The position numbers and the translations under genes are program-made. 34,617 bases of DNA from an uncultured Flavobacteriaceae bacterium (GTDB lineage Bacteria > Bacteroidota > Bacteroidia > Flavobacteriales > Flavobacteriaceae), in the NCBI GenBank assembly GCA_913043275.1, contig CAJWLL010000023.1:1-34617 (forward strand). Reading direction: 5' to 3'. Shown here in pieces: positions 27,287-30,964 of the stretch; position 1 is the stretch's first letter; every line of letters begins with the position of its first letter. The notes under the pieces were generated by a model. The model was not told the origin of the DNA. It searched no databases and saw only the letters and a program-made list of their open reading frames with translations.

Positions 27287-28690
27287 TTATTTAATTTGAT
27301 AAAGCCCATCTTTTCTTCTATCCATTAGCAGTTTTAGTTTGCTTATTACGTTGGATGAGAGATCTTCAAGCTGCCTCTTTTTGATAATGATAGAAAAGGA
27401 TGTCGAGTCCTCAACCATTTTTTCCAACGCATATGGAGTAATGATTTTTATTTTTCCTTTAGAGTAAAACTGACTAGAATAAGATTTGAATGGGAATGCA
27501 TAAAGCTCTGATGAATTTACCTCGGGATGGAAAACTAGCGTTTTGTCTGTACTATTGGAGAGTATCTTTTGTGTGGGTTCCAAAAAGTAAGCTCCAATCA
27601 ACAATACGGGAATACCTACAGCAACACACAGCAACGATTTTTTTCTCTTAAATGAGGTCCAATGATGGGTGATCAAAAGGGCAATAGGAATCATTACCGG
27701 CAGGGTGTAGGTATGGATCAAACTTTTTGAAAAAGTAAAGAAAAACGGAGTCCACAAAATCCATAGCCAAAGGAAGAGTTGCCAAGGGTCATTCCAAACT
27801 TTTTTTAATCCGTTTTTGAGTTGGCTTAAAAGGACAAAAGACCAAGGCAGAGCACCGGCCAATATAAAGGCCCAAATGATCCCCAAAGGCTGTTGTTTGG
27901 GGAAACCATATTTATCGCCCGACCAAGAGGAGTCTATAAAACGCAGGAAATGTTCTCCCACCACAAAATAGTCAATAAAACCCGGGGAATTAATCTCCAT
28001 CAGATAGTACCAAGGAAAGGCGATCAATAGAGTTAAAAGCCCTCCCAATACCCAAGGAATTTGAAAAATTCTTTTTAATGATATTCGATGACGAATACAC
28101 CAGACGAAAAGGGGAGGAAAACTTAGTACACAAATGATGGGACCTTTAGCCAACAACCCCAAACCGATACCAACAAAAAAAATTAATCCTGATATCCTAC
28201 TTTTTTCAGAATGAAGAAATTGCCAGAACCCCATCATTGTTAAAGCAACCGAAAAAGAGAGCATCAAATCGGTAGAGAGTACCCCGGCATGAAGAAAAAA
28301 CTCGGGAAGTGTAAGAAGGACAATTCCAGGGATCAAACCATTAATTTTTTTTTGGTGACCATAGGGAATCAGAAGTAAAGTAATTAAAATAGCTATCATC
28401 CAAAAGGGGAGCCTAAGGGCAAATTCATGGTCTCCAAATAGACTTATGGAACTGGAACAAATCCATGTAGAGAGTGGAGGTTTAGCCCAAAATGGGACAC
28501 CGTAATCTATTTGCGGAACAATCCAATTACCCGTTTCAACCATCAATCGGGCAATCTCTCCATAGCGTGCTTCTGTTTTGTCTGTTAGTGGAATGACGGC
28601 ATTGAAAAATAAGCGTATTCCCGCCAGAAGAATAAATATACAACCATAGGGTGATCTGAAATCTTTTTTAATTCTTTCTGCTAAGCTCAA
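27287..28690 (-). CDS. GT39/ArnT-like membrane glycosyltransferase
   Basis: This 467-residue protein has about 11-12 transmembrane helices and the N-terminal signature of PMT/ArnT-type enzymes: DKTEARYGEIARLM (the acidic loop-1 residues), then GVPFWAKPPLSTW. A soluble C-terminal segment of about 110 residues follows from ~365. These enzymes move a sugar from a polyprenyl-phosphate donor to lipid A, proteins or other acceptors on the periplasmic face. The start overlaps the stop of the GT2 gene by 4 nt (ATGA), and the GT2 product probably makes the polyprenyl-phosphate sugar that this enzyme uses. The acceptor is unknown. Confidence 0.8.
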   Translation of the reverse strand: MSLAERIKKDFRSPYGCIFILLAGIRLFFNAVIPLTDKTEARYGEIARLMVETGNWIVPQIDYGVPFWAKPPLSTWICSSSISLFGDHEFALRLPFWMIAILITLLLIPYGHQKKINGLIPGIVLLTLPEFFLHAGVLSTDLMLSFSVALTMMGFWQFLHSEKSRISGLIFFVGIGLGLLAKGPIICVLSFPPLFVWCIRHRISLKRIFQIPWVLGGLLTLLIAFPWYYLMEINSPGFIDYFVVGEHFLRFIDSSWSGDKYGFPKQQPLGIIWAFILAGALPWSFVLLSQLKNGLKKVWNDPWQLFLWLWILWTPFFFTFSKSLIHTYTLPVMIPIALLITHHWTSFKRKKSLLCVAVGIPVLLIGAYFLEPTQKILSNSTDKTLVFHPEVNSSELYAFPFKSYSSQFYSKGKIKIITPYALEKMVEDSTSFSIIIKKRQLEDLSSNVISKLKLLMDRRKDGLYQIK

Positions 28691-29421
28691 CTTTTATACT
28701 TCTTTGAAATTTTAAAAAGGTCCCACCATAGGGTAAAAAAATACAGGGGACTCACTCTGGAATCGGGGGTGTCTACCCATGCCCTAAGTGGAATTTCCCT
28801 TATATAATTTTGAATTTCGGATCTTCCGAAAAGACGGATCATTCTAAAGAAAATTTCAACATCGAAAAGCCATTTGGAAATAAAAACCTGGTCAAATATT
28901 TTCTCAGCGGTTTGGGTTTCAAAAATTTTGCATCCGCATTGAGAATCGTATATGCTTAAATTTAATGCATTGGAGATTGCGGTAGCGACAACCCTTCCCA
29001 AGAGAAATCGGTACCATTTTCTTTTGATTTGGTTGTCTAGTTTTAATATTCTCGATCCAAAAGCCAATACCACATTTTCTTTTACCTGTTCTGACAAGCG
29101 CAAACATTCTTCAAGGCTGGTGGCAAGGTCAGCATCCAAATAAGCTACTTTTTGGAAATTTTGATATTTTAGTACTTGGCGGAAACCAGTAAAAATAGCA
29201 TTGGCCTTTCCCCTATTTTGTGCCATATTATATAATTCAATTTGACCGGGAAATTGATTTTTTAAGGCCGATAACACATCATCTGTTGTGTCTTTTGAAC
29301 CATCATTGACAAAAAAAACAGACACTTTAGGTTGGAGAGAAAGGAAGCTTACGAACTGAGAAACGGGCAACCTATCAGCCTCATTATAGCATGGGATTAC
29401 GATTGCCAGATCTTTTTGCAT
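28687..29421 (-). CDS. Family 2 glycosyltransferase (polyprenyl-phosphate sugar synthase-like)
   Basis: This 244-residue cytoplasmic GT2 has DLAIVIPCYNEADRL, FFVNDGSKDTTDDVL, NRGKANAIFTGF and the metal-binding A-Y-L-D-A-D-L-A. Lys and Arg near GSRILKLDNQIKRKWYR resemble dolichyl/undecaprenyl-phosphate glucose or mannose synthases. It lacks the C-terminal membrane helices that some homologues carry. It should make polyprenyl-P-hexose for the GT39 gene that follows with a 4-nt overlap. ATG 29419-29421 is preferred over an in-frame TTG at 29428-29430, because that TTG lies inside a perfect -7 box (TATATTTG, 29428-29435). The mRNA would then be almost leaderless. Confidence 0.8.
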   Translation of the reverse strand: MQKDLAIVIPCYNEADRLPVSQFVSFLSLQPKVSVFFVNDGSKDTTDDVLSALKNQFPGQIELYNMAQNRGKANAIFTGFRQVLKYQNFQKVAYLDADLATSLEECLRLSEQVKENVVLAFGSRILKLDNQIKRKWYRFLLGRVVATAISNALNLSIYDSQCGCKIFETQTAEKIFDQVFISKWLFDVEIFFRMIRLFGRSEIQNYIREIPLRAWVDTPDSRVSPLYFFTLWWDLFKISKKYKS

Positions 29422-29427
29422 AGTGCT

Positions 29428-29435
29428 CAAATATA
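29428..29435 (-). promoter_or_regulatory. Consensus -7 box of the GT2-GT39 operon
   Basis: TATATTTG on the minus strand matches TAnnTTTG and is only 6 nt from ATG 29421, implying a very short or absent 5' leader. No TTTG -33 box at the usual 19-21 nt spacing was found. Confidence 0.45.
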
Positions 29436-29492: not shown

Positions 29493-29522
29493 AAAAAAAT
29501 GCGAGCCCATCGGCTCGCATTT
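29493..29522 (-). terminator. Strong minus-strand terminator
   Basis: A perfect 11-bp stem AAATGCGAGCC/GGCTCGCATTT (29497-29507/29512-29522) with a 4-nt loop is followed on the minus strand by TTTTTTTGC. It ends the transcript of the small ORF at 29543-29605. Confidence 0.85.
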
Positions 29523-29542
29523 GACTTATAGAAAAGGATAGC

Positions 29543-29605
29543 TCAGAAGACAGTACTTGTAGGTATCTGCTGTCCTAACTTTCCTAAATTACATACGTAA
29601 GACAT
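29543..29605 (-). CDS. 20-aa peptide ORF with strong Shine-Dalgarno
   Basis: ATG 29603-29605 opens a 21-codon frame encoding MSYVCNLGKLGQQIPTSTVF, stopped by TGA at 29543-29545. Upstream, AAAGGAGGTG contains a full AGGAGGT (29611-29617) 5 nt from the ATG. That is exceptional here, since no other gene in the window shows such a site. A strong terminator lies 20 nt downstream (29493-29522), so it forms its own short transcription unit behind the antiporter gene. A TCCTTTTC after the stop (plus 29531-29538) could pair with GAAAGGA and mask the SD. The family is not recognised. It could be a leader peptide, a regulated small protein or a translational decoy. Confidence 0.5.
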   Translation of the reverse strand: MSYVCNLGKLGQQIPTSTVF

Positions 29606-29695
29606 TTGACACCTCCTTTCAAAATATGTTAGACATAGCTGTTGTCACAGCAAGAAATTCTTTTTAAATATAAGCAGAAAAAAAATTTCTCCCGA

Positions 29696-30964
29696 TTATT
29701 TTACAATGTTTTTTAGCGTTAATCCTTGAACCAAAATCGTAAACAATACAATTACATATGTAAGAAAGAGAATTAAGGCTTTTCCCTCTCCAATATCGTC
29801 AGGTAAATTAAGCGCCAAGGCTACGCTCAAGCCTCCTCTAAGTCCACCCCAAGTGATGATCAAGGCAGTTTTCTTTTCAAACTTTTTGAATAGTGATAAG
29901 AAGGCTATAGGAATACTTACACCTATACCCCTAGACAATACAACCAGAATAATTACCAAAACGGAGATAGTTATAAATGGTAATTGGAAAGACTCAAAAA
30001 TCATAATAACCTCCAGTCCAATAAGAATGAATAAAATGGCATTTAAAGTTTCATCCAAAAGATGCCAAAACTTATAGACATAATCACCCATCGCTTTTTG
30101 GATACCATCTTCATTTTCATCAATGTCAAGATTTTGATTTAGAAATAATCCCATCATCACTACCCCTAAAACTGCGGAAAAATGAAAATAGTGTGAGATA
30201 ATAGGCAGTAATAAAACCAGTGAAATGGTTATTAAAACTTCTAATTCAGTATGTTCATTCTCAATATATTTTAAAAGTTTAAGTCCAAAATACCCCATAA
30301 CTGTTCCTAAAGCAATACCTCCCAAAACCTCAGTTACAAATAAGCTTCCAACTGCAGCAGCAGTTATATTTTCCACACCATCTTGTTTGATACTCAAAAG
30401 AGTTAAAAAGACCACTACGCCTATACCATCGTTAAAAAGAGATTCTCCTGCAATACGGGTTTCAGTTATAGAAGATAGATTCATTTTTTTTATCATTGCC
30501 AATACTGCTATGGGATCAGTGGGTGCTATCAAAGCACCAAACAAAAGACAATCTATATAAGTCAACCCCATAGTATTCAGACCAAATACAGGTTGCTCAA
30601 TCAACCAGTAGACTCCCGAACCAACTGCAAAAGTGGAAAAAATCACCCCAAAGCTAGCTAGAAGTAGAATAGTCACTTTATCTTTCAATAGTTCATGAAC
30701 ATTGACACTCATAGCACCAGCGAAGAGCAAGAAAGGCAACATTACATTTACCAACAACTCACTGAAATCAAATTCTTTAGTAATTTCTGATACAGTTTCA
30801 AATACCTGAGGAAAAACAACCCCCACCATGGTAACAATAATAGATAAACAGAGTGCCAAAATCATCAAACCTATGGTTTGAGGGAGCTTTAAAACTCGGA
30901 TATTAATCAGCGTAAAAATTGCTGCTAAAGTTATTAATATAGTAGATAATTCAAGAATGCCCAT
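29696..30964 (-). CDS. CPA1-family sodium/proton antiporter
   Basis: This 422-residue protein has about 12-13 transmembrane helices and the CPA1 motifs TDPIAVLA and ESLFNDGIGVVVF; the Asn-Asp pair in the latter is the ion-binding site. Also present are FSAVLGVVMMGLFL and WGGLRGGLSVALALNLP. It exchanges cytoplasmic Na+ (or K+) for H+, consistent with a marine lifestyle. It stands alone; riboflavin synthase is 35 nt upstream on the same strand, so some read-through is possible. It has no C-terminal regulatory tail. Confidence 0.88.
   Translation of the reverse strand: MGILELSTILITLAAIFTLINIRVLKLPQTIGLMILALCLSIIVTMVGVVFPQVFETVSEITKEFDFSELLVNVMLPFLLFAGAMSVNVHELLKDKVTILLLASFGVIFSTFAVGSGVYWLIEQPVFGLNTMGLTYIDCLLFGALIAPTDPIAVLAMIKKMNLSSITETRIAGESLFNDGIGVVVFLTLLSIKQDGVENITAAAVGSLFVTEVLGGIALGTVMGYFGLKLLKYIENEHTELEVLITISLVLLLPIISHYFHFSAVLGVVMMGLFLNQNLDIDENEDGIQKAMGDYVYKFWHLLDETLNAILFILIGLEVIMIFESFQLPFITISVLVIILVVLSRGIGVSIPIAFLSLFKKFEKKTALIITWGGLRGGLSVALALNLPDDIGEGKALILFLTYVIVLFTILVQGLTLKNIVK

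Follow-up and report, generated by a model that had tools for sequence, protein, structure and literature searches.

A conserved small RNA gene with an rpsU-type Shine-Dalgarno sequence and a 20-codon reading frame in marine Flavobacteriaceae

The window, i.e. the whole stretch of DNA analyzed here, comprises 34,617 nucleotides from an uncultured Flavobacteriaceae bacterium, which corrects the Cytophagales placement proposed in the initial annotation. Between an ORF encoding a Na+/H+ exchanger (29696-30964) and another encoding a family 2 glycosyltransferase (28687-29430), both identified with Pfam, the minus strand harbors, from ca. 29672 to 29493, a self-contained small RNA gene whose product would be ca. 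160-165 nt long. Judged by sequence comparison, the existence of this gene is near certain. In 5' to 3' order it consists of a promoter-like box, a 5' hairpin, a Shine-Dalgarno sequence (SD), a 20-codon ORF, an element located after the stop codon (the post-stop element) and a terminator. The corresponding features are the following:

29665-29672, minus strand: putative -7 promoter-like box TATATTTA of the Bacteroidota type, TAnnTTTG in most relatives
29638-29651, minus strand: 5' hairpin GCUGU-GACA-ACAGC, detected by blastn in the genus and by the RNA model in other genera
29609-29620, minus strand: extended SD GAAAGGAGGUGU, complementary to the 16S 3' tail ACACCUCCUUUC
29543-29605, minus strand: ORF MSYVCNLGKLGQQIPTSTVF, 20 codons, stop TGA, frame kept in relatives
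29608-29613, minus strand: 5' strand of helix P2, GGUGUC, which is the SD's 3' half; partner strand 29567-29562 (GAUACC)
29562-29567, minus strand: 3' strand of helix P2, GAUACC, pairs with 29608-29613
29598-29604, minus strand: 5' strand of helix P3, UGUCUUA, including the UG of AUG, pairs with 29577-29571
29571-29577, minus strand: 3' strand of helix P3, UAGGACA, pairs with 29598-29604
29579-29587, minus strand: 5' strand of P4, codons 7-9, UUAGGAAAG, relatives having UUAAGGAAU-like versions; partner strand in the post-stop element
29527-29541, minus strand: post-stop element CUAUCCUUUUCUAUA, with the SD (helix 2) or codons 7-10 (P4) as alternative partners
29493-29522, minus strand: intrinsic terminator with an 11-bp stem, GAUG loop and U tract, showing covariation and loop conservation

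The SD core GAAAGGAGGTG occupies 29620-29610 and is followed by TCAA and by the ATG at 29605-29603, on the minus strand; the strong SD ahead of an ATG described initially is thus present, with a gap of 4 nt after AAAGGAGGTG instead of the 5 nt given then. The SD can base-pair with 12 nt of the 16S tail, whose sequence, GGAACACCTCCTTTCTAGAG, was taken from three members of the genus (G006, G007 and G018). In these three genomes the matches to the tail are 16S genes according to their flanks, other matches look like coding sequence, and a search of the own assembly with the genus tail sequence did not retrieve its own 16S tail. Computed with RNAduplex, the 20 nt upstream of the ATG bind the tail with -21.2 kcal/mol, as compared with -7.0 kcal/mol or weaker for 25 other ORF starts of the window, drawn from the 33 mechanical ORFs of at least 90 aa; among 9,886 background windows a single one, presumably the small RNA SD itself, reaches -20 kcal/mol. 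The SD-poor character noted initially holds for the window, and genome-wide the pattern AAAGGAGGN{3,9}ATG yields 20 matches (19 distinct SDs) against 15 in the reversed control. The small RNA SD is the strongest of these 20, rpsU is second with -19.9 kcal/mol, and the rest reach -16.8 kcal/mol or weaker. Another short ORF of the same genome, 26 codons long (L209, G000:C3:73174-73191, minus strand), lies behind AAAGGAGGTT, with -16.8 kcal/mol.

Concerning the distribution, blastn found the small RNA in 20 of the 22 genomes of the genus, own genome included, and the RNA model added G004, so that 21 of 22 carry it; the only one in which it was not found, G020, is 68% complete. Among the other 38 of the 60 genomes searched, blastn gave one match, restricted to the terminator. 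Scanning the family with the model gave matches with E <= 0.5 in 35 of 199 genomes, nine of them strong: the own genome, G004 and representatives of seven other genera (E from 8.8e-24 to 8.3e-11), all of them assemblies of 1.3-2.2 Mb. Order and phylum scans, of 395 genomes each and with stricter filters that lose weak matches, returned only the own genome as a strong match. The weak family matches (E of 5.6e-5 and higher) and the order and phylum matches of 31-37 bits were rejected, since the six loci read from the former and four order-scan alignments read from the latter are terminators without SD or ORF; weak matches outside the clade beyond those ten were judged by score alone.

A GTDB scan for the 5' hairpin CTGTGACAACAG plus AGGAGG plus ATG, in which these three parts, hairpin included, are conserved by construction and the rest is free, yielded 94 stretches. 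Among the 80 listed, 71 match the RNA model (E <= 1e-4) and are labeled Flavobacteriaceae, Flavobacteriales, Flavobacteriia, Flavobacteria, Candidatus Arcticimaribacter or Bacteroidetes, two Crocinitomicaceae and one Cryomorphaceae being also among these labels, and the nine that bear other labels (one Bacteroidaceae) do not match it. Two pattern matches in IMG/VR were discarded as not being this RNA (L227 does not match the model; L226 scores 12.5 bits, E 0.6). Taken from these scans, the carriers appear to form one group of marine Flavobacteriaceae genera. Two assemblies hold two different copies each (L150 and L153 in MAG UBA11891, L012 and L022 in G005), which may reflect strain mixture, contamination or true paralogues. 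In Rfam 15, no family reaches its gathering score at the small RNA and the only match in the window is a tRNA; the best sub-threshold scores, from the two copies searched, are 21.7 bits for L20_leader (cut-off 58.7) and 21.3 for RefA9 (cut-off 49). No paper naming this RNA in its title or the start of its abstract was found in open-licence PMC full text.

TAnnTTTG is the -7 promoter consensus of Bacteroidota, and its exact form is present in 59 of the 75 copies with enough upstream sequence, at a nearly constant distance from the hairpin (within one base in 51 of the 59); the exact motif is absent in the other 16, the window (TATATTTA) among them. This arrangement suggests that the box acts as a promoter from which the RNA would be transcribed. 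The 5' hairpin was found independently of the pattern scan by blastn in the genus and by the model in other genera, where L069 is short by one base; it gives 66 matches in 66 loci, and a single one in the window. The terminator, whose 11-bp stem, GATG loop and T run span 29522-29497, and the 20-codon ORF, with its stop at 29545-29543, are present as initially described. In the 66 loci, GATG-loop terminators occur 64 times at the small RNA and once elsewhere, whereas the 84 terminator-like hairpins found elsewhere in these loci have other loops.

The neighborhood of the unit was examined in 72 copies, the genes being identified with Pfam from a single representative per named cluster. Upstream lie a Na+/H+ exchanger (53), a lumazine-binding, riboflavin synthase-like protein (8) or a Na+/Ca2+ exchanger in opposite orientation (7); downstream are a 2OG-Fe(II) oxygenase (37), a glycosyltransferase (14) or others, including opposite-strand genes. 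The window glycosyltransferase probably starts at ATG 29421 (minus strand), ca. 10 nt after a TATATTTG box of its own, and not at the listed TTG. The oxygenase ATG often abuts the terminator U tract, so that a promoter would hardly fit in between and the oxygenase may depend on read-through from the RNA. Such a layout would fit a cis-acting leader or attenuator of the downstream gene, with the tiny ORF as leader peptide, but the genes that follow the remaining copies differ, and the terminator arms pair with their own upstream RNA no better than with that of others, in an antiterminator search whose positive control worked. Moreover, upstream of the 30 best oxygenase loci of other genera (94 genomes matched) there is neither the hairpin nor an SD-ATG. 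We therefore rejected the attenuator, which we consider very improbable; since the downstream genes differ and some lie on the opposite strand, the unit is most likely a gene of its own.

An N-free ORF of 19-21 codons is found in 72 of the 77 copies with SD and ATG, and ends with TAA (52), TAG (15) or TGA (5). The remaining five comprise L111 (20 codons, one N), L096 (stop lost, end five codons later), L091 (which holds N), and L163 and L119, cut by contig ends. Insertions and deletions between copies comprise whole codons, and pN/pS over 281 close pairs is 0.52 in frame, 0.63 in frame +1 and 1.19 in frame +2. A reading frame is thus preserved, and relatives also retain the start and the SD; the small difference between 0.52 and 0.63, confounded by the fold, supports selection on the residues themselves weakly. 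Of the 51 peptides of 20 codons, 50 have Pro15 and 48 end with Leu or Phe, the latter encoded by different codons. Otherwise the peptide varies strongly between lineages, especially in its C-terminal half, and by inspection it is polar and charged, with no membrane segment. A clade of seven copies (L166, L112, L147, L167, L155, L129 and L144) has a different peptide, of the MSIEKNSKELVGLLVPFVHLF type. Its post-stop element nearly duplicates the 16S tail, three of the copies having TCACTCCTTTCTAA and the remaining four a closely similar sequence.

These peptide properties bear on a possible relationship with type I toxins. The hok and aapA mRNAs are type I toxin messengers with a distal SD-sequestering element; the small RNA likewise has a short ORF and its own terminator. 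Its SD may pair with a remote 3' element, as happens in toxin mRNAs when folded; sequence comparison favors this pairing, but the predicted SD accessibility is no lower than in shuffled controls. Here, instead, the peptide is polar and variable, no antisense partner is known, and the RNA is near-universal in the genus, unlike the patchy occurrence of toxins. A toxic, membrane-active peptide with its SD held by a distal element is, hence, improbable.

To analyze the fold we used the structure-blind alignment A5. The 81 model matches and four genus loci reduce to 78 distinct ones, of which A5 holds 72; it omits L104, L163 and L119 (contig-end cut), L091 (N), a second L121 match consisting of the terminator only, and L003, a near-copy of L106. 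Over five helices, 96.5% of 2,572 cells are paired, compared with 41-53% when the partners are slid. Thirteen pairs have changed on both sides, seven in the terminator, three in P2 and P3, two in helix 2 and one in the 5' hairpin; as A5 contains near-identical pairs, these counts are not independent, and cluster representatives were used for the duplex tests. Shuffled alignments, which ignore relatedness, equal the data in none of 500 cases on four of five measures and in 3 of 500 on the fifth, further pair types. The paired cells amount to 95.3% in P2, 90.0% in P3 (with two of the both-side-changed pairs) and 99.9% in the terminator, and own P2/P3 partners outperform those of other lineages in all 5000 permutations (0/5000, 16 clusters).

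P4, which forms a pseudoknot with P3, was tested by duplex energies because in one seven-member clade the MAFFT alignment shifts the post-stop element by one base, so that helix 2 is undercounted there. Its strands change in step, being AAAGAGU/ACUCUUU in L129, AAGAAGU/ACUUCUU in L144 and GGAGUGU/GCACUCC in L149. Using 71 of the 72 A5 copies (L111 holds N), own P4 duplexes have -9.98 kcal/mol versus -6.21 kcal/mol across lineages (0/5000 permutations, nine cluster representatives), and own SD/post-stop duplexes have -10.06 kcal/mol (1/5000, nine representatives); with six clusters these become 11/5000 and 188/5000, respectively. The post-stop element pairs about equally well with codons 7-10 as with the SD. 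Altogether, the compensatory changes support a fold that would span the start region and the post-stop element.

Masking of the SD by the downstream TCCTTTTC, as suggested initially, is favored by this comparative pairing, which is better than in shuffles (p <= 0.05) in 45 of 73 copies, but the lowered accessibility that it implies is not predicted: for the mean unpaired probability of AGGAGG, the median is 0.29 both in the copies themselves and after shuffling their downstream part, and SD accessibility falls below that of its shuffles in 30 of 73 copies. Energetic occlusion of the SD is accordingly not supported, its predicted accessibility being equal to that of the shuffled controls. In rpsU leaders (10 found in 18 loci) the corresponding accessibility is 0.55.

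A chance juxtaposition of SD, ORF and terminator, devoid of function, could find some support in the number of AAAGGAGGN{3,9}ATG matches of the own genome being not far from that of the reversed control. Conservation, covariation and SD strength rule it out, leaving a practically negligible probability.

A pseudoknot over a start codon, accompanied by a conserved 5' hairpin, recalls receptors. In the rpsO (S15) and alpha operon (S4) mRNAs of E. coli, a ribosomal protein binds a translational pseudoknot over the start codon. The small RNA resembles them in the hairpin and the downstream pairing over the start region, and differs in having no known binder and an anti-SD-like element after the stop as the competing strand. 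If P2, P3 and P4 built such a receptor, a ligand or ribosomal protein would lock or free the start. This is improbable, since by eye the pseudoknot in A5 has no unpaired core that is invariant, the receptor would control nothing but a 20-codon ORF, and none of the Rfam families, otherwise comparable as structured bacterial RNAs, reaches its gathering score at the small RNA.

As for the ribosomes involved, normal Bacteroidota ribosomes hide their anti-SD and initiate without SD. According to PMC9976891, rpsU of Flavobacterium johnsoniae is autoregulated by ribosomes lacking bS21, which prefer extended SDs; most Flavobacteriales studied carry one such extended-SD gene, rpsU, to which a genome-wide gene count limits SD-dependent control in this order. 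The same work gives rpsU SD helices of 9-13 bp and about -14 to -21 kcal/mol, and discusses Tyr54 along with the bS21 residues that contact the 16S tail (PMC9976891). With the rough comparison that a different program allows, the -21.2 kcal/mol of the small RNA is at the strong end of that range. Among the 77 copies, the match to the tail reaches 14 nt (TAGAAAGGAGGTGT) in 50 and 12-13 nt in 14, and the SD is shortened or interrupted in 13.

A strong SD on Flavobacterium rpsU had also been mentioned in the initial annotation, and rpsU of the own genome (G000:C15) indeed bears the same extended form. The pattern GAAAGGAGGTGN{1,8}ATG, modelled on the small RNA and rpsU themselves, has 39 sites in 29 related genomes: 24 at the small RNA (one a contig-end-cut copy in G005), 14 at rpsU, assigned by position, and one elsewhere (G005:C5); its reversed control gives two matches. 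It misses small RNA copies with other SD letters (G004, G012, G018, G124 and G108) and the rpsU of G013. With 38 of the 39 longest-SD sites at these two genes, it is reasonable to connect the small RNA with ribosomes whose anti-SD is exposed; its 20-residue ORF is not bS21, and it is probably a second gene, beside rpsU, that such ribosomes translate.

The two genes do not always go together. rpsU starts, read in 23 RNA-bearing genomes (hence leaving out G020), have the extended SD in 17 (with one changed base in G018), a weakened one in G095 and none in G006, G007, G019, G124 and G108, where the small RNA retains its SD (L049, L046, L047, L188 and L193, respectively). That the small RNA keeps its SD where rpsU has none argues for a function of its own and against a simple role as companion of rpsU. 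The initial proposal of a small regulator or sensor is partly supported, by the conserved unit to which the ORF belongs and by the SD shared with rpsU. The own bS21 has Tyr54, and of four relatives read, G124 and G108 have His54. Combined with their SD-less rpsU, this hints at a lost rpsU autoregulation in these two genomes, and the link to bS21 may not be general.

The same SD data may be read in terms of a ribosome decoy or base-pairing sRNA, the effector being the RNA itself. Its SD would then trap 30S subunits whose tail is free, or its post-stop element would bind the SDs of other mRNAs in trans, for instance that of rpsU, and the ORF would only serve to load the ribosome. The small RNA SD being the strongest of those tested in the own genome, the likeness of the post-stop element to the 16S tail (closest in the TCACTCCTTTCTAA clade), the appearance of the 5' hairpin and the GAUG terminator loop as RNA-level sites, and the variable peptide all speak for it. 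We consider it unlikely, nonetheless, because a start and an interchangeable stop 19-21 codons on, kept in 72 of 77 copies, are more than a decoy needs, and because the rpsU SD is missing in five genomes that keep the RNA.

Coming back to the structured messenger, we give about an even chance to the complete description of a free-standing small RNA gene, with its own terminator and, putatively, its own promoter, whose structured mRNA encodes a peptide of 19-21 residues from a start meant for ribosomes with a free 16S tail. Either as a structured small mRNA or as a dual-function RNA it would be new. More tentatively, as a possibility that we hold less likely than not, the RNA would be specialised in sensing ribosomes whose anti-SD is exposed: an internal element resembling the 16S tail would compete with the true tail for the SD, so that the RNA would weigh free against occluded 16S tails and switch its state on being translated.

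In the structured messenger described first, the P2/P3 hairpin of the resting RNA would contain the AUG together with the SD's 3' half, and the post-stop element would either close the pseudoknot with codons 7-10 (P4) or pair with the SD's 5' half. A ribosome whose tail is free, which at rpsU is one without bS21, could invade this structure by forming up to 14 bp with the SD and then initiate. On reaching codons 7-10 this ribosome would melt P4, and the released post-stop element could then mask the SD upstream; at the stop codon the ribosome would itself cover the post-stop element. Translation would in this way meter itself, and the state of the RNA would change with the supply of exposed-anti-SD ribosomes. 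The output, as well as this order of events, is what we infer from sequence and predicted pairing: it may be the peptide or the changed RNA state, and both gating by bS21-deficient ribosomes and a regulatory effect are presumed.

Among the closest known systems is the rpsU mRNA of Flavobacterium johnsoniae (PMC9976891), which shares an SD pairing with 12-14 nt of the 16S tail in SD-poor Flavobacteriaceae. The small RNA differs from it in that it encodes no ribosomal protein, has its own terminator after 20 codons, presents its start region within a covarying, pseudoknot-type fold, and persists in genomes whose rpsU lacks an SD. Gene counts such as the one in PMC9976891 would probably overlook an unannotated 20-codon frame. 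A group of marine genera keeps a second extended-SD start, predicted to be as strong as that of rpsU and placed inside a conserved fold, in what constitutes a new RNA family of uncultured ocean bacteria. The idea of specialised ribosomes becomes testable beyond the autoregulation of one protein and, if the sensor reading is true, the RNA would be a second client of specialised ribosomes in Bacteroidota, and one that is not a ribosomal protein.
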